Below are positions 1,403 to 15,729 of a stretch of DNA of 64,000 nt, piece by piece. Below the pieces are notes generated by a model. The model saw only the letters and a program-made list of their open reading frames with translations, had not been told where the DNA came from and did no database searches. The translations under genes and the position numbers were made by a program. The stretch covers positions 2,595,043 to 2,659,042 of the forward strand of contig CP129469.1 in assembly GCA_030583665.1 (NCBI GenBank). Direction: 5' to 3'. Positions within the stretch are counted from its first letter, which is position 1, and each line of letters begins with the position of its first letter. The stretch comes from Candidatus Jettenia sp. AMX2 (GTDB lineage Bacteria; Planctomycetota; Brocadiia; Brocadiales; Brocadiaceae).

Positions 1403-2473
1403 TCATCCCTGATTTGCAACCATATTACGCAACTGATACACATACGAAAGCACCTTTGCAACTGCCTGATAAAGTTTAGGTGGTATTTCTTCGTCAATTT
1501 CCGTTGTGCTGTATAAAACACGGGCAAGGATACTATCCTCTACTATTGGAATATTATTATTTTCTGCGATTTCCCGTATTTTTAATGCAAGATAATCTGC
1601 CCCTTTCGCAATGACCTTCGATGCTTCCATTGTGATGGCATCATATTTAAGCGCTACTGCATAGTGCGTGGGGTTGGTAACTACCACGTCTGCATCAGGT
1701 ATGGCGTTCATCATTCTCTTGTTTGACATCTGGCGCTGTACTGCCCTGATCCTTGATTTTGTCTGAGGATCTCCTTCTGCCTGCTTTGTCTCCTGCTTAA
1801 CTTCATTTTTGGTCATCATCATATCCCTGGAATATTGCCACCGCTGATACAGCAAATCGAAAAGGGACAGTATGAACAGAATAATACCAATCTTCAGGGT
1901 AATGCCAAATATCAAACCAGATACGGAACTGAAGATTACCTCCATTCGCATACTTGTTAACTCCATGAGCGGTTCCAAATCTTTCCTCACGGAAAGATAT
2001 GACACGCCACCCATTATGCACAACTTCCCCATAGACATGAACAGTTTCATCAGAGATCTCTTCGACACAAGTCTTTGTATGCCGGAAACAGGATTTAATT
2101 TTTTAAAATTCGGCATAAGCGCTTTATAGCTGAAAGCAAAACCTGTCTGTGCGTATGAAGCTATCAGGCCAACAACCATAAATCCCCCAAGTACCGGAAG
2201 AAGTCCCTTCATGTTTTTAAAAGAAATATCCAACAACAGGGTCTGAAATGTATCTGCAGTGAAGTTTTTGTAGTAAAGATTTCCACAAAGCACCCTCATG
2301 GTATCTTCCATTTGCGCTACCATTACACCTCCTAAGGAAAATATAAGTAATACTCCTGCCAGCACGATAAGTGAACTGTTGAAATCCTCACTCTTTGCTA
2401 CCTGTCCCTTTTCACGAACTTCCTTTTTCTTTTTGGGTGTTGCGGGTTCTGTTTTTTCTTCACCTGATCTCAT
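1403..2473 (-). CDS. flhB: FlhB, export switch protein
   Basis: Export-apparatus protein that switches substrate class from rod/hook to filament. The 356-aa length is typical. The N-terminus is basic (EKTEPATPKKKKEVREKGQV). Hydrophobic segments follow at about 33-55, 90-110, 143-160 and 183-208, and then a cytoplasmic domain. The autocleavage motif NPTH is at residues 267-270, close to its place in enteric FlhB. The start is 3 nt after the fliR stop, with a GGAG upstream inside the fliR end, so it is probably translationally coupled to fliR. Its expected partner for switching, FliK, is encoded at 56953-58758. Confidence 0.97.
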   Translation of the reverse strand: MRSGEEKTEPATPKKKKEVREKGQVAKSEDFNSSLIVLAGVLLIFSLGGVMVAQMEDTMRVLCGNLYYKNFTADTFQTLLLDISFKNMKGLLPVLGGFMVVGLIASYAQTGFAFSYKALMPNFKKLNPVSGIQRLVSKRSLMKLFMSMGKLCIMGGVSYLSVRKDLEPLMELTSMRMEVIFSSVSGLIFGITLKIGIILFILSLFDLLYQRWQYSRDMMMTKNEVKQETKQAEGDPQTKSRIRAVQRQMSNKRMMNAIPDADVVVTNPTHYAVALKYDAITMEASKVIAKGADYLALKIREIAENNNIPIVEDSILARVLYSTTEIDEEIPPKLYQAVAKVLSYVYQLRNMVANQG

Positions 2474-2476
2474 AGT

Positions 2477-3243
2477 TTACATGGCTCCTACTAAACTGAA
2501 CATGTTTCTGCGAAGCATATGTAATAAATATTCCATTGCACGCGTGATAAATGGAAATGTTACTGCTAAAAGCAAAATTCCGACAATAATCTTTATCGGA
2601 AAAATGACCAGAAAAATATTCATCTGTGGAGCAGATCTTGCAAGGAACCCCGAGATTATGGTAACAAGTATCATAATAACCATGACGGGGGCCGCTATTT
2701 TGATCGCAGATACAAACAATTCTCCGAACATTTGCACCATTCTGCTTATCGAAGTATCCGTCCCGATAAATCCGGTTACCGGTACCGTTTGATAACTGTA
2801 AACCAGTGCTTTTATCAACCAGTGGTGTCCGTTCAATCCTAAGAAAAGGATGATTCCGGTTATTTGAAACAGGTGTGAGACCGGACTGGAACTTCCGTCA
2901 AGTAATGGATTTACCAGTTCCGCAAGCCGGATCCCCATAGCGTTACTGATTAACTCTCCTGCTACGGTAAATGCACAAATGCCAGTGTTACTGTATAACC
3001 AATCAGGAAGCCGATTGAAATCTCCTTGAATATTAAAACAATATAACCAGCCATAGTTTTTGGCAATGCCTCCTGCTCACTGCTTATTGCCGGGAAAATA
3101 GCAAACGTTATTACCATAGCCAATCCTATCTTTAGTATTAACGGCATGTTCGTCTGACTGTAAATTGGTGAAAAGAAAAGGACACTGGCAGTTCTGAAAA
3201 GTACTATGGTAAATAATGAAAGAAGGTTAATCAAATCCATCAT
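2477..3243 (-). pseudogene. fliR: FliR, export gate protein, split by a frameshift
   Basis: FliR is an integral membrane part of the flagellar export gate, usually about 260 aa in one frame. Here the N-terminal piece (93 aa, 3243-2962; MMDLINLLSLFTIVLFRTAS, ending in FVHLP) and the C-terminal piece (2477 to about 2970; AGELISNAMGIRLAELVNP, then FLGLNGHHWLIKAL) sit in different frames that join near 2962-2975. One extra base there, reading through to AFTVAGELIS, would restore a normal FliR alignment; both halves are otherwise well conserved. The N-terminal start is 5 nt from fliQ and the end is 3 nt from flhB, so the operon layout is intact. No slippery heptamer is visible at the junction. Either this is a sequencing or assembly error, or the copy is inactivated. 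An inactive FliR would be expected to block flagellar export. Confidence 0.85.
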
Positions 3244-3248
3244 TTTTC

Positions 3249-3518
3249 CTAGAAGGTATAATTATTCAGATTCCCTAACAACACCGTTGTAAATGCAGTT
3301 AATTTACGAATAAACCATGGCATGGCAAACGCAAAAATACCAAATACCACCATAAATTTAGGGAGAAAGGTAAGGGTCTGTTCCTGGATACTGGTGGCAG
3401 CCTGGAATATTCCTATCAGAAGCCCTATCACTAAAGCGCTTCCAATAAGCGGGGCAATGATAATCACGGTAACGGTTAGCGTTTCCATACCGAGAAAAGT
3501 TATTATGTCATATCCCAT
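3249..3518 (-). CDS. fliQ: FliQ, export gate protein
   Basis: Small two-helix membrane protein of the FliP5-FliQ4-FliR1 export channel. At 89 aa it has the normal length. It has the family pattern: an N-terminal GMETLTVTVIIIAPLIGSAL hydrophobic segment, the conserved QAATSIQEQTLTFLPK loop, and a second hydrophobic helix (FMVVFGIFAFAMPWF). It lies between fliP (6 nt gap) and fliR (5 nt gap). Confidence 0.95.
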   Translation of the reverse strand: MGYDIITFLGMETLTVTVIIIAPLIGSALVIGLLIGIFQAATSIQEQTLTFLPKFMVVFGIFAFAMPWFIRKLTAFTTVLLGNLNNYTF

Positions 3519-3524
3519 ACTATC

Positions 3525-4304
3525 TCACTTTATACTTGAAACCAGCGATTGTAAAATTAAATGCCAGCCATCTACTAAAACAAACAGGACGATTTTAAAC
3601 GGAATCGATATCATCATGGGAGGAAGCATAAACATACCCATAGACGTCAGAACACTTGCGACAACAATATCTATCACAACAAAAGGCAGATAGACTACCA
3701 GCCCCATTTGAAAGGCAGTCTTTAACTCGCTCATAACAAATGCAGGTAATATAATACGCGCAGGAACTTCATCCGGAGATTCCGGTCCATCCATTTCTGC
3801 AATATTGTAAAATAACGCTATATCTCTTTCCCTTGTATGCTTGAGCATAAACGTTTTTACCGTTCCCATACCCCTGTTGAAAGCCTCTTCTTGTGTAATT
3901 TCTTCCTGCATATATGGTTGAATAGCCTCCTGGTTAATTTGTACAAATACCGGATTCATAACAAAATACGTTACGAGAATTGCAAGGCCGATGAGAATCT
4001 GATTCGGCGGCATTTGCTGGACAGCCAGGGCGCTTCTTGCAAATGAAAGTACAATAATAATCCTGGTAAATGAAGTCATCACCATCAGGAAGGCAGGAAG
4101 GAAGATAAACGACGTCATCACCAGCAGAATCTTTACAGTATTGGCAAGCTGTTTCGGCTCATTCAATTCGGTCATATTTTTTATCGCCTCTTGTATTGAT
4201 TCATTAGATGCATCAGCATCCGCTACTTTTATCAATAGCAAAGCAATTCCAATTGAAAACATAAGCATGGGTAATTTAACCGGACATTTCATCCCTGTTT
4301 CCAC
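3525..4304 (-). CDS. fliP: FliP, export gate protein
   Basis: Core membrane protein of the flagellar export gate. At 259 aa it has the usual length. A hydrophobic N-terminal segment (LPMLMFSIGIALLLI) looks like the cleavable signal peptide known for FliP. The family core follows: MTSFTRIIIVLSFARSALA, then QMPPNQILIGLAILVTYFVM, and a C-terminal part with FQMGLVVYLPFVVIDIVVAS and MISIPFKIVLFVLVDGW. The start overlaps the end of fliO by 16 nt, suggesting coupled translation. Confidence 0.97.
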   Translation of the reverse strand: METGMKCPVKLPMLMFSIGIALLLIKVADADASNESIQEAIKNMTELNEPKQLANTVKILLVMTSFIFLPAFLMVMTSFTRIIIVLSFARSALAVQQMPPNQILIGLAILVTYFVMNPVFVQINQEAIQPYMQEEITQEEAFNRGMGTVKTFMLKHTRERDIALFYNIAEMDGPESPDEVPARIILPAFVMSELKTAFQMGLVVYLPFVVIDIVVASVLTSMGMFMLPPMMISIPFKIVLFVLVDGWHLILQSLVSSIK

Positions 4305-4798
4305 CTGGAAATTGACTTTTTAAATACGTTGAGAAATTCCTTTTTTTGAATGTCTCCACCGTGACATTCGGGAACATTTTCATTTGCAATTTCGGTCAGC
4401 ATCCCTATCCTGTCGCTGGTTACACCAAGCAATAAATATTTTCCCGGCACTTTCACCAGGAAGACAGATTTTTTTACACCTAACGGAGTGTGATCAATAA
4501 TCTGTATATATTTACTTCTTCCTATATTTGTCCTGACACCATACTTATTGCCCAGCACATATACCGTTGCAATTATCATCGCTATGATTATAAGCAAAAC
4601 AACAATAGTTCTTGTATATCCCCCATGTACATCACGAAACGATATACCTGAAGAACCGCTGTTTAGCCTTCCAGCTTCAGTATTCTCAGCTAAAACATAG
4701 CCTTGCATTACGGCAACGGTAAACATAAGGTATCCCAGGATGACTGCGAATGTGAAAATAGATTTATAAAAAGTTCTTTCGGTTACCGTTTTTTGCAT
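4289..4798 (-). CDS. fliO: FliO-like export assembly factor
   Basis: FliO helps assemble the FliP ring and is poorly conserved, so the call rests on position and architecture. The 169-aa product has a hydrophobic N-terminal segment (about 12-34, probably a signal peptide), a single strong membrane helix (TIVVLLIIIAMIIATVYVLG, about 64-83), and then a small cytoplasmic domain. That domain has the FliO pattern: IQIIDHTPLGVKKSVFLVKV, then GKYLLLGVTSDRIGMLTEI. It directly precedes and overlaps fliP. It is first after a 412-nt gap, so it may head its own transcript fliOPQR-flhBA. Confidence 0.85.
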   Translation of the reverse strand: MQKTVTERTFYKSIFTFAVILGYLMFTVAVMQGYVLAENTEAGRLNSGSSGISFRDVHGGYTRTIVVLLIIIAMIIATVYVLGNKYGVRTNIGRSKYIQIIDHTPLGVKKSVFLVKVPGKYLLLGVTSDRIGMLTEIANENVPECHGGDIQKKEFLNVFKKSISRWKQG

Positions 4799-4834
4799 TG
4801 TTTATCCCATACTTGAAAAAGTTCTGTCTGCCCT

Positions 4835-4856
4835 TATGTATGTATGTATGTATGTA
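4835..4856. repeat. Short tandem repeat (TATG)5 upstream of fliO
   Basis: Five perfect TATG units plus a partial TA (read CATA on the fliO strand), 37 nt upstream of the fliO start. It is outside the coding region. Slippage could change promoter-to-start spacing but would not shift the fliO frame. No promoter is recognised beside it. Confidence 0.9.
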
Positions 4857-5210
4857 ACCTGCGCAAATAAGATACCATTATATTTATTCGTTTCTGAGGG
4901 TAGTATGATACCGTAACTTATCATGCAGGTTTGCAGGACATCCTGATAGAATTATGATATAGGTTGATCAGCATAAACAATCATCTATAAAAGACCTGGC
5001 AGGTTTTCTTGTAGTCTTTTTAAACTGACCGTAGTTTTCCTGGACAAGAATAAGTGGCTTATCAACATAATTTAGGAAAAAAAGTGATCAGAAATTAGGA
5101 TCGTGTATTTGTTTTTTTGTTTTGCAATCAAAAATCGGAAATAAAAAAATCGGGAAAGGCAGAAAGTGAAGGAGGGGTAATTGATTTATGATACAAAGGC
5201 AGGTCTCTTC
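4857..5210. other. Gap between fliN and fliO
   Basis: No convincing coding sequence or terminator is seen. The stretch is AT-rich, with A-runs near 5074-5160. It is one of only a few long interruptions in this gene run, so a promoter for fliO-flhA could lie here. I found no GG-N10-GC sigma-54 site or sigma-28 site in it. Confidence 0.5.
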
Positions 5211-5594
5211 TTATTCCAGGTCCTTAATCCTGTCCTGGGGGTTTGCAATCTTCGTTATCTTGACCCCAAAATTTTCTTCAACAACAACGACTTCCCCGTA
5301 TGCAATTACTTTACCGCGGACCGTTATCTTAACAGGTTCTCCGGCTAAGCTATCCAGTTCGATTATTGATCCTGGAAGTAATGATAAAACATCACGCATT
5401 ATCATCTCGGTTTTACCAAGTTCTACAAGAATCGGGATGTGGATGTCCATAAGCATGTCAATAGTATTTACATTTCTGCTGCCAGCCTTTGGATTTTCAG
5501 GTTTCAACTGAGAAAACTGAACAGATTTTATGGACACTGCATCTCCTGTATCTTTCGTAACAATATTTTGATCTTCACTTTTATTTTCTTCCAT
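5211..5594 (-). CDS. fliN: FliN, flagellar C-ring switch protein
   Basis: FliN forms the base of the rotor switch complex with FliM and FliG. The 127-aa product has a variable N-terminal 45 residues. A single SpoA/FliN domain follows: MLMDIHIPILVELGKTEMIM, then LSLLPGSIIELDSLAGEPVK, then VRGKVIAYGEVVVVEENFGV. The N-terminus is charged and lacks a CheC-like domain, so it is FliN rather than FliY. The start ATG has AGGAAGAT upstream. It lies 56 nt after fliM. Confidence 0.95.
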   Translation of the reverse strand: MEENKSEDQNIVTKDTGDAVSIKSVQFSQLKPENPKAGSRNVNTIDMLMDIHIPILVELGKTEMIMRDVLSLLPGSIIELDSLAGEPVKITVRGKVIAYGEVVVVEENFGVKITKIANPQDRIKDLE

Positions 5595-5650
5595 ATATAT
5601 CTTCCTTTCTCATGTTAGCTTTTTACTTTTTTATGCCATAAGCAGGCCAC

Positions 5651-6727
5651 TTACACGCTGACAGGAACATTATCTATCAAGGTTACAATTTGTATTGCTT
5701 TTTTTGAACCGGACAATCCAGGTTTTCCGTAATATTTATTTTTTCCCTCTACAGATACTTTTATGTTGTTTGTAATCTTATTGTCGAGCCTCAACACATC
5801 ACCAACTTTAAGGCTTATCAAATCATTCACTGTTATGTTTGTTTCGTCCAGCACGCCGGCGACAACAACATTTATATCATGTATAACTTTTCTCAGAAGT
5901 TTTTCATTCTCTTTGCTGTCATTTCTGACACCTTGTTCTGAAGGTTTATTACGATTGTGTAGTTGTTCCAATATGCTTTCCATACTTGAAACAGGAAGAC
6001 AAAGTTTCATTTCACCGGAACTGTATTCCAGATTAACGATAAAAGAAACCAACAGCATTGCCTCAGCTTCCGAGGCAATGTCTAAATATTTTGACTCCAT
6101 TATGGTATCAGATATCCGTCTGCCTGCATACCATTCTCCAGGCTTTGCCTTATCCCCTGTTTCTGCAACAGCTTCAGAAACTCCAGATTTCATTTCCGTA
6201 AAAGCCTTCCATGACCCGGAAAACTTTTCTACTATAATATTTACTATTTTTTTTATAATGGCAGTTTCCATTTCTGTTAATTTCCGTATCTTATTTTGCG
6301 TTTTATCAGTTCCTCCAAATGCCCTTGCCACCATAGCCAAACATAAACCTATATCTATTGCAACACATCCATACCCCTGCAACGGCTTTAGTCCGATTAT
6401 ATTAATGAACACAATATCAGGACAGGTGTTTTTAAATATTTCAAAGCTTAATTCGTCTATAGATTTTACATCGACCTTTATTGTTGTTCTCAGATAATTG
6501 GAAATCTCCCTGCTTATTTGATAGGCAGTATTGTCGTATAATTTGTATAAGATATTTTTCTTTTCTCTCGATAAGATATTCGGCCTTTTGAAGTCGTAAT
6601 ATTTTATCCTGCCGTCTTCATCTTCAAATATTTCAGTTTGCGCACTGGTAGCCTGGTCTTCACGAAAAGAATCAAGTAAACGTTCAACCTCCTCGGTGGA
6701 AAGAATTGCGTGGTCTTTGTTTTCCAT
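5651..6727 (-). CDS. fliM: FliM, flagellar motor switch protein
   Basis: C-ring component that binds phospho-CheY and sets rotation direction. At 358 aa it is near the family length. The N-terminus carries a CheY-binding-type segment (ILSTEEVERLLDSF, about residues 8-21). The middle domain has LYDNTAYQISREISNYLRT and the family's GCVAIDIGLCLAMVARAFGG region. The C-terminal SpoA domain (about 285-350) contains NDLISLKVGDVLRLDNKI and GKNKYYGKPGLSGSKKAIQI. It follows fliL by 2 nt. Several CheY-like proteins at 29445-42509 and 43684-44133 are possible ligands. Confidence 0.95.
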   Translation of the reverse strand: MENKDHAILSTEEVERLLDSFREDQATSAQTEIFEDEDGRIKYYDFKRPNILSREKKNILYKLYDNTAYQISREISNYLRTTIKVDVKSIDELSFEIFKNTCPDIVFINIIGLKPLQGYGCVAIDIGLCLAMVARAFGGTDKTQNKIRKLTEMETAIIKKIVNIIVEKFSGSWKAFTEMKSGVSEAVAETGDKAKPGEWYAGRRISDTIMESKYLDIASEAEAMLLVSFIVNLEYSSGEMKLCLPVSSMESILEQLHNRNKPSEQGVRNDSKENEKLLRKVIHDINVVVAGVLDETNITVNDLISLKVGDVLRLDNKITNNIKVSVEGKNKYYGKPGLSGSKKAIQIVTLIDNVPVSV

Positions 6728-6729
6728 AA

Positions 6730-7323
6730 TTACTGTATCACAAAATCAGAAAAATAAACCTGCGTAATTATATTGTTTTCCTCAAAAAACTCTTTGTTTA
6801 ATATATCTTTGATTTCGGTCCTTAGCTTAAGCTGGCCGTCAGGTATTCCTATATCCCTAGCGTTCATTTTCGAAAGGAATGATATCAGTTTATCTCTGAA
6901 AATTACCTTTTTTTCCTGTATTACCTTTTCTGTTTCACTGTTACTTATCTCCAGTGCAATAATAACCCTTAAAAATCTTCTGTTCTCAACATTACCCAAA
7001 TTTACGACAATACTGTCCATCGGCACTAATATCTTTTTCAGAAGATTATCATTCCCTCCGTCGCCAGCATTCCCGGAAGGAGTTTCACCTGATCCGGGAA
7101 CATAAACTTTGTTGTCTGCTCCTTCATTTGATTTTTTCAAAGACTTAAAGGAATACACTCCCGAAACAAGGACAAAAGCGCATCCAACAGAGACAACAGC
7201 GATAACAATCATAACCAGCATGTTTCGCATATCCATGTTCAAATTGCTTTTCCTGGCAGTATCAACACTTTCCCCTTTCGTTTCGACTGTTCCCGTGGTA
7301 TTTTCAGTTCTTTTGTTTTCCAT
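6730..7323 (-). CDS. fliL: FliL, motor-associated membrane protein
   Basis: Stator-associated inner-membrane protein. The 197-aa product has a charged N-terminal tail, one membrane helix (MLVMIVIAVVSVGCAFVLVSGV, about 34-55), and a periplasmic domain. That domain begins with a Gly/Ser/Asn-rich linker and has the FliL core: MDSIVVNLGNVENRRFLRVI, then EKKVIFRDKLISFLSK and NKEFFEENNIITQVYFSDFV. It sits between the stator genes and fliM, as in many flagellar operons. Confidence 0.93.
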   Translation of the reverse strand: MENKRTENTTGTVETKGESVDTARKSNLNMDMRNMLVMIVIAVVSVGCAFVLVSGVYSFKSLKKSNEGADNKVYVPGSGETPSGNAGDGGNDNLLKKILVPMDSIVVNLGNVENRRFLRVIIALEISNSETEKVIQEKKVIFRDKLISFLSKMNARDIGIPDGQLKLRTEIKDILNKEFFEENNIITQVYFSDFVIQ

Positions 7324-7393
7324 TACTTCTTTTTCATTATCCTTCTTATAAACAGTAAAACTCTCTTACGGATTTCGGATTATTCCGAAATCA

Positions 7394-8089
7394 TTATTTA
7401 TCAGAGATTTTTATGTTTATTCTGTTATTTGCTCTGGCGTAAGAAGACCCTTCACTTAACAACGGCTTATATATCCCATATCCAACTGCGGTAAGCCTTC
7501 TGTAGTCAATACCGCCAACATCGTGAAAATACCTTGTAACCGAAGAAGCGTATTCCGCTGATAATTGCCAGCTTGTGGAATATCTGTCCGACGGCACAAA
7601 CGTTCCATCAACGTATCCTTCAATAATAACCTGACAATCTCTATCCTTTATTACCTTTATTACGTTATTAAGATACAGCTTGGTTTCCGCTGACATATCG
7701 AGCATTTCGTTTATGAAATCAATTTTTGCGGGAAAAACAACCTGATGCCCTGTTTGGATATACTCAATATCAATCTCATCATCGACCGTATTAGCCAACT
7801 CTTTTTTAACCCACTGATCTTCCTTTTTGTATGTGCCGGTATCGTTCTCAGGCATGTTGATAATGGCTCCACTGCCTCCAAAGCTAATCTTATTGATTCC
7901 ATAATTATCTAACGCCTCTTTCACAGATGTAAGCGCCTCTTTTGCCGATTTTTCCTCGGGGGCACCCGCATATCCAGCCAGCATAATAAAAAATGCCAGC
8001 ATGATAGTCATCACTGAAGAAAAAGCAAGCATATCGACAGTCGGCTCACCTTCCTCCGGTCTTTTCTTTCTCCGTTTCCTGATAAACAC
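7394..8089 (-). CDS. MotB-like OmpA-family protein lacking the channel aspartate
   Basis: Second MotB-type protein next to motAB. I choose the GTG at 8089 because AGGAGG lies 5 nt upstream. An in-frame ATG at 8149 would add 20 residues encoded by a palindromic intergenic repeat. The resulting 231-aa product has a basic N-terminus, one membrane helix (MLAFSSVMTIMLAFFIMLAG), and a C-terminal OmpA/peptidoglycan-binding domain (CQVIIEGYVDGTFVPSDRY, then RANNRINIKI). Aligned to its neighbour MotB (TYSDMITLLMTFF), the helix reads AFSSVMTIMLAFF, so the proton-carrying Asp is Ser. It may form a mixed stator, be a structural partner, or have another role; this is inference. Confidence 0.85.
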   Translation of the reverse strand: MFIRKRRKKRPEEGEPTVDMLAFSSVMTIMLAFFIMLAGYAGAPEEKSAKEALTSVKEALDNYGINKISFGGSGAIINMPENDTGTYKKEDQWVKKELANTVDDEIDIEYIQTGHQVVFPAKIDFINEMLDMSAETKLYLNNVIKVIKDRDCQVIIEGYVDGTFVPSDRYSTSWQLSAEYASSVTRYFHDVGGIDYRRLTAVGYGIYKPLLSEGSSYARANNRINIKISDK

Positions 8090-8100
8090 AATTGCCTCCT

Positions 8101-8151
8101 GTAACTGAATTCCGGATTTCTGACGAGTTATTCCAAAATCCGGAATCATTA
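8101..8151. repeat. Palindromic intergenic repeat between the two motB genes
   Basis: ATTCCGGATTT and AAATCCGGAAT arms enclose a short spacer. Similar TTTCGGAT/ATTCCGAAAT sequence occurs at 7366-7391. It belongs to the TCCGGAAT/ATCCGCAATCCGAAAT family scattered through gaps in this window, and it explains the spurious N-terminal extension of the downstream motB-like frame. Confidence 0.7.
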
Positions 8152-8856
8152 TTAGATTTCTTTTATAACGATTTCCACCCTTCTGTTCCTTGAGCGGTTG
8201 TTTTCACTGCTGTTCGGAAACAAAGGTCTGTAACTGCCATATCCGGAAACACTAAAGCGTGCAGACCTGTGCATTTCCTTCCCTGCAAGATAGCTGCATA
8301 CTGCGGAAGCTCTTGCAATCGACAACCTGATATCACTATCAGAATCGGCAGAATACTGGTCATCGGTATGGCCATCTATTCTTACATTGTTTGGAATAAC
8401 CTTTAACATCCATGCAATCTTATCCAATAACTGCCGGTTTTCTTTCTTTAAGGCAATTTCACCTGCTTCAAAAAGGATATCAGCCCTTATTCTTATCATA
8501 AATCCTTCCCTGGTTTTCAGTAAGTCAACCACATTAAACAATTCATTTTCTGTCATAAACTCAACCATTTCATCCCTCACCATATCCAGGTCAATTCCTG
8601 GCGGCGGAAGGTTATCGGCCTCCACATTTATTCTAAGCCTGTCAGTAGCTTTTGTATCGAATATGCCTGAGTCTTTGAGATCCGCGGCGATTGTATTTAT
8701 AACAAGATTTTCATCTCCCTTTACGGCGACAAAAACACCTTCAATTTTATACGGGTTCATAGCAATAATCAGCACAAAGAATGTCATTAAGAGGGTAATC
8801 ATATCGCTATACGTTAATGCCCAGGCATTCGGATCTTCTTTTTTCTCTTCTCCCAT
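8152..8856 (-). CDS. motB: MotB, stator protein
   Basis: Peptidoglycan-anchored stator subunit. The 234-aa product has a short charged N-terminus and a membrane helix with the conserved pattern WALTYSDMITLLMTFFVLI. D18 is the expected ion-carrying aspartate. A plug/linker follows. The C-terminal OmpA-like domain includes VRIDGHTDDQYS and NSSENNRSRNRRVEIVI, with the peptidoglycan-binding residues typical of the family. Its ATG overlaps the motA stop (TAATG). Confidence 0.95.
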   Translation of the reverse strand: MGEEKKEDPNAWALTYSDMITLLMTFFVLIIAMNPYKIEGVFVAVKGDENLVINTIAADLKDSGIFDTKATDRLRINVEADNLPPPGIDLDMVRDEMVEFMTENELFNVVDLLKTREGFMIRIRADILFEAGEIALKKENRQLLDKIAWMLKVIPNNVRIDGHTDDQYSADSDSDIRLSIARASAVCSYLAGKEMHRSARFSVSGYGSYRPLFPNSSENNRSRNRRVEIVIKEI

Positions 8857-9656
8857 TATTCATCCGCTTTCTTTTTTTCTTCAGAATTTGGCATCTGCTT
8901 TCGTTGTGCAGGTGAAAGAAAGCCTTTTAACTTTTCTTCAACTATCGTTGGATTATCCCCTGATTGGATGGAGACGACACCTTCCACAATTAATTCCTTC
9001 ACCAGTGTTTCTTCTTTTGACCTGATATCCAGTTTCCCAGCCATTGGTAAAAATATTAAATTTGCCAATAACACCCCGTAAAAGGTAGTTATCAATGCAG
9101 TAGCCATGCCTACTCCGATCTGTGATGGATCATCCAGCTCACGAAGCATGAGAATTAATCCTATCAAGGTGCCCATCATACCAAAGGCGGGAGACACAGT
9201 TCCCATGGAAGAAAGAACGTCCCTGCCAATAGAATGCCTGTTTTTTAAATAATCAATTTCTTTTTCAAGTATTTGACGGATGCTGTCGGCATCGGTCCCA
9301 TCAACCATTAATTGTATTGATTTTGAAAGAAAGGCATCCTTACTATCATCGATTTTACTTTCTAACGATAATAATCCTTCTCTTCTTGCAAGCTTTGCAA
9401 ACTCTATCATTCTTTTCATTTCAACCTGAGGGGAAGCGACTTTTACAAACAAGGTTTTCATCATTAAACCAACCAGCCCCGTAACCCTGGTTAAAGGAAA
9501 CCGGATAAGTGTTGCGGCAACGGTTCCACCAGCAACTATCAGAATAGAAGGAATATTCAGAAATGCAATTACACCAGAAAAACCTCCCCCAAGAACGATC
9601 GATATTATGAGCAGTACAAAACCTATGAGCAAACCTGCCGGTGTTGCGATATCCAT
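8856..9656 (-). CDS. motA: MotA, stator protein
   Basis: Stator ion-channel subunit. The 266-aa product has N-terminal helices (TPAGLLIGFVLLIISIVLGG, then IPSILIVAGGTVAATLIRFP). A cytoplasmic loop contains the charged stretch used for torque (AKLARREGLLSLESKIDDSK, about 87-106). The last two helices follow (GTVSPAFGMMGTLIGLILML and ATALITTFYGVLLANLIFLP), with the conserved Pro residues. It overlaps motB by 1 nt and follows the MotE-like gene by 13 nt. Confidence 0.96.
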   Translation of the reverse strand: MDIATPAGLLIGFVLLIISIVLGGGFSGVIAFLNIPSILIVAGGTVAATLIRFPLTRVTGLVGLMMKTLFVKVASPQVEMKRMIEFAKLARREGLLSLESKIDDSKDAFLSKSIQLMVDGTDADSIRQILEKEIDYLKNRHSIGRDVLSSMGTVSPAFGMMGTLIGLILMLRELDDPSQIGVGMATALITTFYGVLLANLIFLPMAGKLDIRSKEETLVKELIVEGVVSIQSGDNPTIVEEKLKGFLSPAQRKQMPNSEEKKKADE

Positions 9657-9669
9657 TCTCTTTACCTCT

Positions 9670-10581
9670 TCATAATAATTTCCTGATCTCTTCGGCTAAT
9701 CTAGAGGCCTTCTCTGTTTCCGCCAATTCCAATATTCTCGCAAGATTTCTGTGGTCCATTTCTGATAGAATACCCACGGCTGTCCTCCTGTCCATTTTCT
9801 CTATAATGGATAAAACCTTTCCAGGGTCCATTCTCTGATAGATTGCTGCAAGCTTCCTTATGTTTCTTTTCTTAATCGTTTCGTCTGATGTTGAATCAAC
9901 CACATGCAATCTTTTCATTTGATCACTAATTACTGCCGCAACAGAAGTACCCATCTCAGTGAGAATGCTTGCAGAATTTTTTGAAGGCATACTGGCTAAT
10001 ATTTTGGCACTGACATCATGACTCATCTTCGTTATAATCTCAGCAGCCCTTACTTTGTCCATCGCTGCATAAACATTCGCTAATTGTCTTATATTCTTTC
10101 TTTTACTTTCCTCAAACAGAACAAGGTCGTTTTCAAGATCTACTCTTTCATTGCCAAGAAACACAAGCATTTCATCTATTCTTTCCCTCATAGACTCGAT
10201 TTCCGCCTTGCGGCTTTCTAAATCTGTTTTAAAAAAGTCTAATTCTTTCTCCTTTTTATCAAGTAAAGCCAGCCTGTTTTCATACATACTTATTCTTTGC
10301 TGCAGCTCTGATTTATATTTACTTATTTCCTCAGGAGAAATATTTTTCAGTATTCTGACTATTGTTGCTTCTTTTTCTTCTCTTTGCTCCACAACGGCGT
10401 CCTCACTATCATCTTCGGCATTCTTTTTTTTGTCAATTTCCGGTAGTTTATCAGAATATAATTGTTTCACCTGCTTTTCGGTCTTTTTTTTTAAAGTAAT
10501 CATTGCCACAGATGATACAGAAAAAAATGCGATAAAAAATAGCATATATTTACTGTATTTTTTTATATTTACCTTAACCAT
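9670..10581 (-). CDS. MotE-like protein with MgtE N-domain (MS-ring/stator accessory)
   Basis: The 303-aa product starts with a single membrane helix (YMLFFIAFFSVSSVAMITL). A long coiled coil follows (about 60-160, rich in E/K/R). The C-terminal half has two MgtE-N/FliG-like repeats (KVRAAEIITKMSHDVSAKIL, then QRMDPGKVLSIIEKMDRRTA and SEMDHRNLARILELA). Proteins of this shape beside fliJ and motA are annotated as MotE or FliG-related flagellar proteins. The exact role is not established from sequence. It overlaps fliJ by 13 nt, so translation is probably coupled. Confidence is high that it belongs to the flagellar operon and lower for the function. Confidence 0.75.
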   Translation of the reverse strand: MVKVNIKKYSKYMLFFIAFFSVSSVAMITLKKKTEKQVKQLYSDKLPEIDKKKNAEDDSEDAVVEQREEKEATIVRILKNISPEEISKYKSELQQRISMYENRLALLDKKEKELDFFKTDLESRKAEIESMRERIDEMLVFLGNERVDLENDLVLFEESKRKNIRQLANVYAAMDKVRAAEIITKMSHDVSAKILASMPSKNSASILTEMGTSVAAVISDQMKRLHVVDSTSDETIKKRNIRKLAAIYQRMDPGKVLSIIEKMDRRTAVGILSEMDHRNLARILELAETEKASRLAEEIRKLL

Positions 10582-11033
10582 TTTTTCATCACCAGATTAT
10601 TGGCAAATTTTGTCATTGCAATATCATCCATTTCTTTGTTCGACAAAAATTCAAGAACGTTTTTGTGTTCCTCTTCCCATCTGTCTCTGAGTTTTTCCAG
10701 TGCCTTCCTTTTTTTTACTATTTTCCACAATTCATCCTGAATGACTTTCATCTCATGCACCATTTTCTGTACTCTGAGTCTGGATGCTTTTATTTCACAA
10801 TTCAGTTTCAAGAAATAATTTTCATATGTTATAAGTTCTCCCTGTGTAACACTTCGCCCTTTTTTTGACTTCAGTTCACCCTGACAGATCATCATGCGCT
10901 TCCAAAGGTTTTCTGATTTATTTTTCTCGTTCAGGAATGCATTCTGAATGTTTTTTAATCTTCCGGCACACTCGTTTTCGTTCATACGTTCTTTATCAAG
11001 CAGCGGTTGAAGTTTAAAGTGAAATTGTTTCAT
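10569..11033 (-). CDS. fliJ: FliJ, export chaperone/ATPase stalk
   Basis: FliJ is a coiled-coil protein that sits in the FliI hexamer and links it to FlhA. The 154-aa product is highly charged and predicted almost fully helical. It has the family start MKQFHFKLQPLLDKERMNE and a C-terminal acidic/basic helical segment. Sequence conservation in FliJ is low; position after fliI and the start motif support the call. Confidence 0.87.
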   Translation of the reverse strand: MKQFHFKLQPLLDKERMNENECAGRLKNIQNAFLNEKNKSENLWKRMMICQGELKSKKGRSVTQGELITYENYFLKLNCEIKASRLRVQKMVHEMKVIQDELWKIVKKRKALEKLRDRWEEEHKNVLEFLSNKEMDDIAMTKFANNLVMKKWLR

Positions 11034-11272
11034 AACTTATAACCTTCTTTACTATACATCTCCTGCTACCCAATACCTATCTTTCAATTGCGGATTGCTG
11101 ATTGCGGATTGCTGATTTCAGACTTCGGATTTTATTCGGTTTTCTTTATACTTCCGATAGATGCAACAGTAATGGTCAAAAGTTCAGTAACCTTTTTTAT
11201 CAGAAGATCCGGTTCTTTGGGTTTCATCCTTTATTCCATACCGCAATCCGAAATTCGCAATCTGTAATTAAA
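11034..11272. repeat. fliJ-fliI gap with GATTGCGGATT-type repeats
   Basis: This 239-nt gap in an otherwise tight operon holds tandem TTGCGGATTGCTGA units (about 11088-11128). A reverse-oriented partner, CCGCAATCCGAAATTCGCAA, lies near 11240-11260. The same family recurs at 24303, 33500, 34310, 34525, 37830, 40470 and 49700. No coding sequence is seen. Confidence 0.75.
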
Positions 11273-12604
11273 CTACCATACATAATCAGACATCATTTCC
11301 TTTAATCTTTCTATGTCTTCGTTCAATTTTCCCTGCTCATCAATACTTTGTCTGAGATATCCAAGAATCGCCCCATACTTTTTTACTGCATAATCAATCC
11401 TATGATTCCTTCCTTCTGTATAGGCGCCCATATTTATCATATCCTCAGCCTCTTTATAAACCGCATAAGTAGTCTTTAACCTTTGTGCAGCCTGCATGTG
11501 TTCAGAGGATACAATATCAATCATACATCTGCTTATACTATTAAGGATGTCAATTGCCGGATAGTGATTTTGTGCTGCTATCTTTCTTGAAAGGATTATA
11601 TGACCATCCAGAATTGCCCGCACTGTATCTGAAACCGGTTCATTCAAATCATCGCCATCTACCAGTACGGTGTACATTGCCGTTATACTCCCTTTGGAAG
11701 TTGTTCCTGTTCTTTCCAGCAATTTCGGAAGAACAGAGAAAACCGAAGGAGTATATCCTTTTGTAGCCGGAGGTTCACCTATAGCCAGGCCTAATTCACG
11801 TTGTGCATTTGCAAGCCTGGTAATGGAATCCACCAATAACATCACATGCAAACCTTTGTCTCTCAGATATTCTGCGATGGTAGTGGCAACAAATGCCCCC
11901 TTTAACCTCACAACAACCGGCCTGTCCGAAGTCACCGCCACTATAACCGATTTCTTCATACCCTCAACGCCCAGGTTGTTTTCTATAAATTCACGCACCT
12001 CTCTTCCTCTTTCTCCTATTAAGGCAACAACATTCACATCTGCCGAAGAAGACTTTGCAATCTTTCCCAAAAGGGTGCTTTTCCCGACTCCGCTACCCGC
12101 AAATATGCCTATCCTTTGCCCTTTCCCGCATGTCATAAGGCTATCAATAACCCTTACTCCTGTATTAATACATTCTGTTATCAGTGGTCTGTCCAGAGGC
12201 TCCGGAGCTTCATTATACAGGAATCTTATTTCGTCGTAATTAATAGTACCTTTTTTGTCGATCGGGTTACCCAATCCGTCGAGTATTCTGCCCTGCAGTG
12301 AAAGGCCGAGTTTTACCGTGAATGGCTTGCCAGTTGCGATCACTTCACTTTTCGGGCTAATACCGTTTGTATCAGCAATCGGCATTAATAACGTTTTTTT
12401 ATCTTTAAAGCCTACGACTTCTGCCAGAACTGGCTTCTTGTTTGATTCGGTTGTCAGGCGACATAACTCTCCTATATGTACTTCCGGTCCAAGGGATTCA
12501 ATTAATACATTGCTTGCCCTTGAAACGATTCCTGTTAAATTCATGGTATGTATGCCCGATAGTCTTTTATGATATTTTTCAAACATTTCCTCTATTCGTG
12601 ACAT
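11273..12604 (-). CDS. fliI: FliI, flagellum-specific ATPase
   Basis: Hexameric ATPase energising flagellar export, related to F1-ATPase beta. At 443 aa it has family length. Walker A is GIFAGSGVGKSTLLGK (about 169-184) and Walker B is HVMLLVDSITRLA. The catalytic region includes GERGREVREFIEN and the type III ATPase signature PSVFSVLPKLLERTG. The start overlaps fliH by 13 nt. Confidence 0.97.
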   Translation of the reverse strand: MSRIEEMFEKYHKRLSGIHTMNLTGIVSRASNVLIESLGPEVHIGELCRLTTESNKKPVLAEVVGFKDKKTLLMPIADTNGISPKSEVIATGKPFTVKLGLSLQGRILDGLGNPIDKKGTINYDEIRFLYNEAPEPLDRPLITECINTGVRVIDSLMTCGKGQRIGIFAGSGVGKSTLLGKIAKSSSADVNVVALIGERGREVREFIENNLGVEGMKKSVIVAVTSDRPVVVRLKGAFVATTIAEYLRDKGLHVMLLVDSITRLANAQRELGLAIGEPPATKGYTPSVFSVLPKLLERTGTTSKGSITAMYTVLVDGDDLNEPVSDTVRAILDGHIILSRKIAAQNHYPAIDILNSISRCMIDIVSSEHMQAAQRLKTTYAVYKEAEDMINMGAYTEGRNHRIDYAVKKYGAILGYLRQSIDEQGKLNEDIERLKEMMSDYVW

Positions 12605-13233
12605 TTTCTGTCTTCTGTTTCTAAATGTTGTTCTTCAAATACTGAAATGACTTCACCCCAGCGCGTTTCCAGCCTTGCATCGACACAGCCATAATCCGTT
12701 TCGACCTTACAGCCTCCCCGTGAAATATCATTATCACTGATTATTTCACAATCCCCGTTATGATCAGAAAACATGTTGATTTTCATTTCCGTAAGCTTTT
12801 CAAAATCAGCAGGATTAACAAGGATTTTTAAAATATTGTTTTTTTTCACCTTATTAAGTGCCTCCGAAACAATTTTTGCGGTTATCTTACTGCCATTCTG
12901 TGAGATTTCTTCGTGTACCAATTTCTTTGCAACCGCAAGCGCGAGTCTGATTATTTCTTTTTCACTTTTTTCCCAGATAATTTCTGTTTCATTCTTTAGA
13001 TCGAAGATCGCTTTTTTTAATCCCTGGCAAAGAATCTTTACGTCCTCCTGGTTTTTACTCAGCGCGTCAAGCCAGCCTTTCTGATACGCTTCTTTTGCAA
13101 TCGCATCCATTAGCTTCTTTTTTTCTTCGTCCTCATCTATTGGTTTCTCGTTTTCTTTTTTATCGATAACCGGCAAATCAGGTTTCAAAAGAAACGACTT
13201 TCTGATAACCGGTGATTTGTAAATATTACTCAT
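12592..13233 (-). CDS. fliH: FliH, FliI regulator
   Basis: FliH inhibits and tethers FliI and is related to the V/F-ATPase E/b+delta stalk. The 213-aa product has a variable N-terminus and a charged helical middle (about 35-95, KKKLMDAIAKEAYQKGWLDA). The C-terminal HrpE/FliH domain follows (RLALAVAKKLVHEEISQNG, then ILVNPADFEKLTEM, SRGGCKVETDYGCVDARLET). It overlaps fliG by 4 nt (ATGA) and fliI by 13 nt, supporting an operon. Confidence 0.92.
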   Translation of the reverse strand: MSNIYKSPVIRKSFLLKPDLPVIDKKENEKPIDEDEEKKKLMDAIAKEAYQKGWLDALSKNQEDVKILCQGLKKAIFDLKNETEIIWEKSEKEIIRLALAVAKKLVHEEISQNGSKITAKIVSEALNKVKKNNILKILVNPADFEKLTEMKINMFSDHNGDCEIISDNDISRGGCKVETDYGCVDARLETRWGEVISVFEEQHLETEDRKCHE

Positions 13234-14183
13234 ACCATCGGCCCAAGATCCTGAGATTTCCCTCTTACCTTTTCACCCTGAGCTTCAAGTTTACTCAAGG
13301 CATCAACGATGACCTTTTGTGCCGCCTCTACTTCAGCCAGCGGTTTCGGTCCGAGCATTTGTTGTTCTTCAGTTACCATCTCACCCATACGTTTGGACAT
13401 ATTTTTAAATATTTTATCCCTCACTGCCTTACTGGCTGTTTTTAAACTCATGGCAATGGTAACAGTCTCTGTCTCTGCCAGCACCTGCCTGAGAAATTTA
13501 TCCTCCACCAATGAAATATCCTCAAACACAAACATAAATGCCCTGATTTCCTGTGCCATTGATGGATCCTCTTCCTTTATGCGCTGCATTACTGTTTTTT
13601 CCGTTACAGAATCGCTCCGGTTAAGTATTTCGGCAATCATCCGGTATTTTTTTTCGCTTGGCGTGCTTATTCTGTCACCCAGCAACCGTACTTTTTCCTT
13701 TAAAAGCTCATCTACCTGTTTCACAATATGTACCGGTGGCGGCGTTGCAATCACTATCTTGTTTATCAAATCAAGTCTCATTTCTTCCGGCATTATCCGC
13801 ATAATATCTGCAGACTGCTGCGGCTCAAGATAAGACAATACTAATGCCAGGAGCTGGGTATCTTCTCCTGCAAGGATTGAGATAATCTCATCTGCTGTAA
13901 GGTGCTTAAGGCATCTGAATGGCGCATCTGCAGGTCTGCGATCCCTGATGATATTGATGATTTCATCAGTTTGCCGGCACGATTGCAATTGTCCGTTGAA
14001 TTCGTTAAGCACTTGTAAGGAATCCTCGTCAGAAACGTTTTTCAGCTTTTCAATCGCATCGCTAATATCTTCGATCTCATTTTCTTCAAAATTTTTGAGA
14101 ATTTCTGCTGCTACATCAGGACCTAGATTCAGAAGAAGTATCGCTACTTTTTCCTTATTTGAAAGCTCCGGCTGCATGTTCAC
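13230..14183 (-). CDS. fliG: FliG, motor switch protein
   Basis: Rotor protein that contacts MotA and couples the MS ring to the C-ring. The 317-aa product is slightly short for FliG but has all domains. The N-terminal FliF-binding domain has KVAILLLNLGPDVAAEILK. The middle domain has the armadillo-type motif as SYLEPQQSADIMRIMP, where many homologues have EHPQ. The C-terminal charged-ridge domain has FVFEDISLVEDKFLRQVL, then KNMSKRMGEMVTEEQQMLGP. It overlaps the 3' end of fliF by 29 nt from the ATG at 14183; a second ATG two codons in is also possible. Confidence 0.95.
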   Translation of the reverse strand: MNMQPELSNKEKVAILLLNLGPDVAAEILKNFEENEIEDISDAIEKLKNVSDEDSLQVLNEFNGQLQSCRQTDEIINIIRDRRPADAPFRCLKHLTADEIISILAGEDTQLLALVLSYLEPQQSADIMRIMPEEMRLDLINKIVIATPPPVHIVKQVDELLKEKVRLLGDRISTPSEKKYRMIAEILNRSDSVTEKTVMQRIKEEDPSMAQEIRAFMFVFEDISLVEDKFLRQVLAETETVTIAMSLKTASKAVRDKIFKNMSKRMGEMVTEEQQMLGPKPLAEVEAAQKVIVDALSKLEAQGEKVRGKSQDLGPMV

Positions 14184-15729
14184 TCTCCTTCAGCCATTTT
14201 TTTACAAGATTACTGGTAGTTTTCGGGTTGCTTTTTATGTTTTCTATTAAGCTGCTCCTGATATCTTCGAATTTTACGTATGGCTTATCCAGCCCTGCAA
14301 GCCCTGTATCTTCTTTTTTTTCTGTCTGGCCATTCATAAGCTCTGGCATCGCCGGATAGGTAGCATAACCTCCCGTTGTAGCCAGGATTCGTCTTAATGC
14401 CCTTGCTGCAAACCAAAGAAAGGCAAGAACCGCTATTCCAAGGGAAGCGTTTCTGGCAACAGACAGTATGAATTCTCTTTTATCTGCCTTTTCGATGCCT
14501 TCAAAATCAATGAAACCGTGAACATTGCTTTGGAATTCAACGCTTTGTATTTCAAGCTTATCATTTCTTGGCGGTGATTCATCAAATCCTATTGCCTGTT
14601 TTACGACAGCGGCTATTCTATTTAATTCATCTTCGGTCCTGGGAATATATTTTGCATACATCTCCCCATTTTCTCCTTTTACCTTTTCATACATACCATC
14701 GACGAGGATGGCAACTGTTAGTCGTTTGATGCGGGCCTTATTTTCAGATATATTACGTTCTACTCTGCTCAGCTCATATACCGTAGTCTCAGTTTCTTTT
14801 TTTTCCCTGGAAAATCTTCCGCCGTCAGCGCCACCAGCATCCTGAGGTACTTCCGTTGACTGTGTTGTAACAACCTGATTTCTGGGAACTCTTTTTTCCT
14901 GATCATATTCTATGTGTCTTTCATCAATATGATTAAAATCCAGACTCACATGTATCTTAACCTTTGACCGGTTAGGCCCTGTTATTTTTTCGAGTATGCT
15001 CATTACTTTAGACGTATAATGGTCTTCTATCTTCCTGTTTAAATCAAACTGATCTGCAATAATCCTGGACACCTTCGAATCTCCGGCCTTTGACAGCAAA
15101 TTACCCATATTATCAGTAATAGTAATGTTTTCGGGACTCAATCCTTCTACACTTGTACTGACAAGATGGGTAATTCCTGCAATCTTTGAAGCATCCAATG
15201 TATTTCTGCCGTGTGTCCATAAGACCACCGAAGCTGTCGCCGGTTTTTTGTCAAACAGGGAAGCTTCAGGTATCACGATTTGAACCCTTGCCTGCCTTAT
15301 CCCATCCAATTGTGTAATAGTCTTAGATAACTCACCCTGAAGAGCCCTTCTATAATTAACTCTTTGTGCCAGGTCAGACATCCCAAACTGGTTTTTATCA
15401 AATAGTTCAAAACCTACGTCCCCTCTTGGCAGATTTGCATTAGCAAGAGACATTCTTGCCTCGTATATCATGTTTGAAGGAATCAGTACGGTAGAACCAT
15501 TGTCCGTTATTTTATAAGGTATGTTGTGGTCCTTTAAATACGCTACTACCTCTGAGGCATCTTTCCTGCTCATATCACCATACAAAAGACCGTAATTCGG
15601 AGTCCTTACCCAAAAGGTAACAGCAAATAAGGCTACCGCAAACCCCAGTGTCATCACAATAAAAACAAGTTTCTGCCCGAAACTTATTCCCTTCCATACG
15701 TTGCTGAACTGCTCTACTATCTGATTCAA
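14155..15729 (-). CDS. fliF: FliF, MS-ring protein
   Basis: Forms the MS ring that nucleates the basal body. The 524-aa product has an N-terminal membrane helix (LVFIVMTLGFAVALFAVTFW) and ring-building motifs (TPNYGLLYGDMSRKDASEVV, then VNYRRALQGELSKTITQLDG and VQIVIPEASLF). The C-terminal helix is NASLGIAVLAFLWFAARAL, and a cytoplasmic FliG-binding tail ends in LVKKWLKESEHA. It is preceded by a 651-nt gap to fliE, so it may start a transcript. Confidence 0.97.
   Translation of the reverse strand: MNQIVEQFSNVWKGISFGQKLVFIVMTLGFAVALFAVTFWVRTPNYGLLYGDMSRKDASEVVAYLKDHNIPYKITDNGSTVLIPSNMIYEARMSLANANLPRGDVGFELFDKNQFGMSDLAQRVNYRRALQGELSKTITQLDGIRQARVQIVIPEASLFDKKPATASVVLWTHGRNTLDASKIAGITHLVSTSVEGLSPENITITDNMGNLLSKAGDSKVSRIIADQFDLNRKIEDHYTSKVMSILEKITGPNRSKVKIHVSLDFNHIDERHIEYDQEKRVPRNQVVTTQSTEVPQDAGGADGGRFSREKKETETTVYELSRVERNISENKARIKRLTVAILVDGMYEKVKGENGEMYAKYIPRTEDELNRIAAVVKQAIGFDESPPRNDKLEIQSVEFQSNVHGFIDFEGIEKADKREFILSVARNASLGIAVLAFLWFAARALRRILATTGGYATYPAMPELMNGQTEKKEDTGLAGLDKPYVKFEDIRSSLIENIKSNPKTTSNLVKKWLKESEHAAGAFK

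Follow-up and report, generated by a model that had tools for sequence, protein, structure and literature searches.

An ancient MotB paralogue without the channel aspartate suggests that the flagellar motors of anammox planctomycetes and some relatives may run on one ion site

A tandem MotB pair in the flagellar operon

We analyzed a window of 64,000 nucleotides (the whole stretch of DNA under study) from the closed, 3.46 Mb genome of Candidatus Jettenia sp. AMX2. This genome belongs to Brocadiales, the anammox order, and its nearest relatives are anammox-order planctomycetes that include Candidatus Scalindua rubra and Candidatus Anammoxibacter. On the minus strand, we found a flagellar operon that runs, in order of transcription, fliF, fliG, fliH, fliI, fliJ, an MgtE_N/FlbB-like gene, motA, motB, motB2, fliL, fliM, fliN, fliO, fliP, fliQ, fliR and flhB (names from open reading frames, Pfam and sequence). 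The tandem MotB pair reported in a preliminary description is in place, with two bases between the MotB stop and the MotB2 start. The stator genes and their neighbors are as follows.

9670..10581, minus strand: MgtE_N-repeat membrane protein encoded upstream of motA, weakly similar to the collar protein FlbB
8856..9656, minus strand: motA, 266 aa; no other flagellar MotA was found in the genome
8152..8856, minus strand: motB, an ordinary MotB with Asp18 and the full peptidoglycan motif, 234 aa
7394..8149, minus strand: motB2, a MotB paralogue without the channel Asp, 251 aa (MotB_plug and OmpA domains; alignment to MotB)
6730..7323, minus strand: fliL, stator-associated protein (PF03748), directly downstream of motB2

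The closed genome encodes exactly two MotB_plug proteins and one flagellar-type MotA; judging by their length and by how their sequences begin, its other MotA_ExbB proteins are presumably ExbB/TolQ-like. MotB and MotB2 both exceed the gathering score of Pfam MotB_plug and of OmpA, and the MotB2 matches are at 25 bits (cut-off 24) for MotB_plug and at E 4.7e-9 for OmpA (PF00691).

MotB2 has serine at the channel position

The features that bear on the channel lie at the following positions.

8803..8805, minus strand: Asp18 codon GAT of MotB (E. coli Asp32)
8015..8017, minus strand: Ser45 codon TCA of MotB2, at the channel Asp position
7970..8032, minus strand: membrane helix of MotB2, residues 40-60, the most conserved part of the protein (AlphaFold2, conservation)
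7904..7957, minus strand: plug-like helix of MotB2, residues 65-82 (AlphaFold2, modest confidence)

When MotB2 was compared to the solved MotB 6ysf by phmmer, 6ysf aligned to residues 40-249 and placed its Asp on S45. When about 65 sequences were aligned with MAFFT, S45 fell on the same column, as did D18 of MotB. MotB2 thus lacks the conserved ion-binding Asp of the MotB helix, and the Asp-to-Ser replacement noted earlier in this one protein is part of an order-wide pattern. An E. coli MotB anchor row, with numbering off by one residue, served to mark columns only, and the conclusions on the channel column rest on retrieved sequences. The alignment rules out another Asp or Glu of MotB2 at the channel position: the closest acid, D39, lies six residues before S45 and is aligned with Trp12 of MotB. 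In the Scalindua and Anammoxibacter types, D39 sits close to where the helix ends on the cytoplasmic side; Brocadiaceae-type MotB2 has Phe at this position, and most other planctomycete MotB2 have Tyr or Trp.

Distribution and ancestry of the Asp-less copy

In Brocadiales, the channel Asp is present in MotB at all 29 readable distinct loci and in MotB2 at none of 30 (25 Ser, 3 Ala and 2 Gly); in these column counts, one row ended before the column and two loci were second copies of the same contigs. The gene order is motA-motB-motB2 throughout, with the genes overlapping or shortly spaced. The Asp-less MotB2 is therefore a fixed trait of Brocadiales and not one odd gene. Relatives that share it rule out a peculiarity of a single genome, and sequencing error or chance is ruled out because every readable Brocadiales pair shows the pattern and the dN/dS values and conservation agree.

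Profile searches over the phylum found 29 more motA-motB-motB2 arrays in other planctomycete families (L094-L122). Of these, 27 have Asp in the second MotB and two have Ala (L117 and L120), so that MotB2 of two more planctomycete families is also without the Asp, and the notion of an invariably Asp-less second copy is refuted. In Sumerlaeota, where the order is motA, Asp-less motB2, motB, the second copy lacks the Asp in 4/4 loci (L131-L134). This Sumerlaeota copy retains most of the peptidoglycan motif.

In trees built without the channel columns, all MotB2 sequences, including those of Sumerlaeota, fall on one side of a branch with support of 96/82, and the planctomycete MotB2 sequences group at 99/96. 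MotB2 forms a single ancient paralogue clade common to Planctomycetota and Sumerlaeota. On the best tree, the Asp-less state requires two or more changes, and a single loss is compatible with the data (AU p 0.147). The order of families is largely concordant between the MotB and MotB2 subtrees, indicating that the two genes travel together. Among anammox-order genomes, 30 have both MotB2 and fliP, 24 have neither, three have MotB2 only and two have fliP only (Fisher p 6e-11, a value that ignores kinship among the genomes). In a closed 4.4 Mb relative (G010), fliP (C1:623089-623622) is broken by stops and frameshifts and motB2 (C1:356977-357645) is open.

Selection acts on the membrane helix

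To compare constraint on the two genes, we calculated pairwise dN/dS in nine pairs of relatives, and the values were 0.09-0.33 for MotB2 vs 0.07-0.30 for MotB. MotB2 is under purifying selection, like MotB, and these values together with the conservation contradict a reading of MotB2 as a pseudogene. Across 17 Brocadiales MotB2 sequences, mean pairwise identity is 0.61 in the membrane helix, 0.44 in the OmpA domain and 0.29 in the linker. Six helix residues are invariant in Brocadiales MotB2 (T48, L51, A52, F53, F54 and I55), and T(+3), F(+8), F(+9) and I/V(+10), counted from the Asp position, are invariant in MotB too. Conservation in the MotB register is what would be expected of a helix that is still packed in a MotA ring.

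Peptidoglycan residues of MotB and MotB2 differ among lineages

Two features of the periplasmic part of MotB2 are relevant here.

7397..7747, minus strand: OmpA-like periplasmic domain of MotB2, residues 135-251 (Pfam; Foldseek to MotB/OmpA domains)
7550..7552, minus strand: Tyr200 codon of MotB2, in place of the peptidoglycan-motif Arg (LSxxRA to LSAEYA)

AlphaFold2 predicts for MotB2 a membrane helix at residues 40-60, a second helix at 65-82 in the place of the plug and an OmpA-like fold (mean pLDDT 54). The AlphaFold models are of single chains with low overall pLDDT (54 and 52) and served solely to outline the domains. The best Foldseek match of MotB2 is the H. pylori MotB domain (E 3.5e-8). 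The OmpA domain had been described as kept in the paralogue; this is so for the fold, but the Arg of LSxxRA is Tyr200 in Jettenia AMX2, and nearly all Scalindua-type relatives have Tyr, Phe or Gln there. In Jettenia AMX2 MotB2, the Asp of GHTD is also present with V in place of T, and NRR has become NNR.

In the Scalindua type, to which Jettenia AMX2 belongs here, MotB has the whole peptidoglycan motif (GHTD, LSxxRA and NRR), and MotB2 has its Arg replaced, with one exception, and has often lost the Asp of GHTD. In other lineages, the balance of peptidoglycan residues between MotB and MotB2 is reversed: in the Brocadiaceae type, GHTD and the NRR end are missing from MotB, and MotB2 retains the Arg and an NDR end. 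Judged from the sequences, ion binding appears always to stay with MotB while the anchoring residues drift between partners. A heterodimer would explain this simply, although the fit is incomplete, as GHTD is variable in single planctomycete MotBs too, and these often lack its Asp. For the same reason, a strict rule of exactly one peptidoglycan-binding partner is unsupported.

A proposed stator with a single ion site

We observed that MotB2 has lost the Asp, that this loss is conserved, that the paralogy is ancient, that the two genes are inherited together and that selection acts on the helix. The best explanation, and in our judgment a somewhat probable one, is that MotA, MotB and MotB2 form a mixed stator (MotA5-MotB-MotB2) with one ion site. 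This reading is favored by the single flagellar MotA, the strict tandem, the co-inheritance and the invariant helix in MotB register; gene pairing and co-inheritance would also fit two separate complexes. The preliminary description had offered membership of a mixed MotA5B2 stator, anchoring of the motor or modulation of it. The first now appears to be the best-supported of these, and pure anchoring is weakened in the Jettenia AMX2/Scalindua lineage, as MotB2 there has lost the peptidoglycan Arg and MotB has the full motif. MotB2 could still have a regulatory or brake role.

In the proposed stator, MotB2 would be the second axle subunit, and one MotA pentamer would enclose a MotB-MotB2 heterodimer (five MotA, one MotB and one MotB2). 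The ion would be carried on the MotB Asp only. The Ser, Ala or Gly of MotB2 would be permanently neutral, like a fixed protonated site, and MotB2 would contribute the second helix, plug and periplasmic arm. Such a unit would take one ion per 72-degree step and five per MotA turn, vs one per 36 degrees and 10 per turn. As the step size is one deduction built on another, our confidence in it is tempered. We propose, more tentatively than the mixed stator itself, that the stator of anammox bacteria and relatives is obligately asymmetric (5 MotA, 1 MotB and 1 MotB2), with a single ion site and about five rather than 10 ions per MotA turn. In the turnstile model, two Asp sites exchange protons, giving 36 degrees per ion and 10 ions per turn (PMC9389320; PMC11940233). 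Because the turnstile sites trade protonation, a single site may not suffice, and Rieu et al. 2022 state that five ions per turn would demand a new model (PMC9389320).

Among the alternatives, the most credible is that MotB2 forms its own non-conducting complex of MotA5 with two MotB2, which acts as a brake, is kept in reserve or, as a decoy, competes for rotor or anchoring sites. MotB2 has a MotA-compatible helix and a plug-like helix, and D-to-N MotB complexes are structurally normal (PMC9389320), so an inert unit could assemble. However, MotB2 of the Jettenia AMX2 type would be expected to anchor poorly without the peptidoglycan Arg, the number of torque units would be halved if every lineage encoded a brake 1:1 with its motor, and the Asp-bearing MotB2 at 27 loci suggests an original motor role; we therefore consider an inert complex unlikely. 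It is also rather improbable that MotB2 surrounds the stator as an accessory anchor or scaffold, with a plain membrane anchor outside MotA and a role like that of MotX/MotY/FlgT or the collar proteins. The OmpA-like fold and the stator-associated neighbors (fliL and the FlbB/MgtE_N-like gene) agree with such a role, but a plain anchor would have no need of six invariant helix residues in MotB register while its OmpA domain drifts, and in Jettenia AMX2 that domain has lost the peptidoglycan Arg.

Two further alternatives keep the second protein as a carrier or dismiss it altogether. That MotB2 carries ions via D39 is suggested by the location of this acid in the Scalindua and Anammoxibacter types; its offset of six residues, its alignment to Trp12 and the aromatic residues found there in other MotB2 make this very improbable. 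That MotB2 is a degenerating copy about to be lost agrees with the missing catalytic residue, but the frame is open, purifying selection is seen in all nine pairs and the gene is retained in all flagellated lineages sampled, and we give this reading hardly any credence.

Comparison with known 5:2 motors

MotB2 shares with MotB, PomB and MotS the membrane helix with its T..L..FF register, a plug-like helix, an OmpA-like domain and a place behind motA within flagellar genes. It differs from them in having no channel Asp, in being an extra copy beside an intact MotB and, in the Jettenia AMX2 type, in the loss of the peptidoglycan Arg. The Asp-bearing MotB2 of other Planctomycetota (L094-L122, Asp in 27/29) belongs to the same clade and holds the same place behind motB. 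The nearest known case is AglRQS, the gliding motor of Myxococcus, which likewise has one MotA homologue and two MotB homologues, AglQ and AglS (PMC9389320). Whether these form homo- or heterodimers is undetermined (PMC9389320). In contrast to the flagellar, Asp-less MotB2, both AglQ and AglS are predicted to retain the Asp and are non-flagellar (PMC9389320). ExbD and TolR, also axles of 5:2 motors, each insert one helix into a pentamer formed by a MotA homologue (PMC9389320), but their periplasmic domain is different and MotB2 matches OmpA and MotB models instead. The accessory ring proteins MotX, MotY and FlgT are secreted or outer-membrane proteins with no MotB_plug helix, whereas MotB2 has a plug-type helix.

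Every MotAB stator described in the papers we read is MotA5MotB2, in which the two axle subunits are identical and provide two ion sites; how many ions pass per turn is still debated (PMC9389320). In the literature we searched, outside which most subscription papers lie, no flagellar MotB pair in which one member lacks the Asp is described, which is weak evidence of novelty. In the text of a 2025 survey of MotAB evolution (PMC12505986), the word 'tandem' is absent and the lone 'duplicated' refers to the A subunit. Taken together, our data suggest that a single ion site, not the usual two, may drive each flagellar motor unit in anammox bacteria and some of their relatives. If so, these units would be a natural one-site version of the 5:2 motor. 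A site fixed neutral by evolution would amount to a direct natural test of the turnstile model, with the lineages that have Asp in the second copy as a ready control.

Gene order in relatives

Although the Jettenia AMX2 genome is kin to the Brocadiaceae-type family f1, its MotA shares about 79% identity with the Scalindua-type family f4 vs about 50% with f1, and its MotB and MotB2 both nest within f4. A second genome of the same genus (G001) lacks fliP. The f4-like MotA, MotB and MotB2 and the fliP-less G001 suggest that the operon (1403-15729) was acquired by transfer. In Scalindua rubra, a gene similar to the MgtE_N/FlbB-like one (L040:514-1287) is likewise found upstream of motA. In Brocadiaceae-type genomes, the stator operon lies apart from fliP, and at L015, L018, L022, L024 and L027 (about 2215-3250) motB2 is followed not by fliL but by a conserved protein of about 330 aa that ends ...VEELYDFVT..TEIIIQ, often with a cyclodeaminase-like gene next to it.
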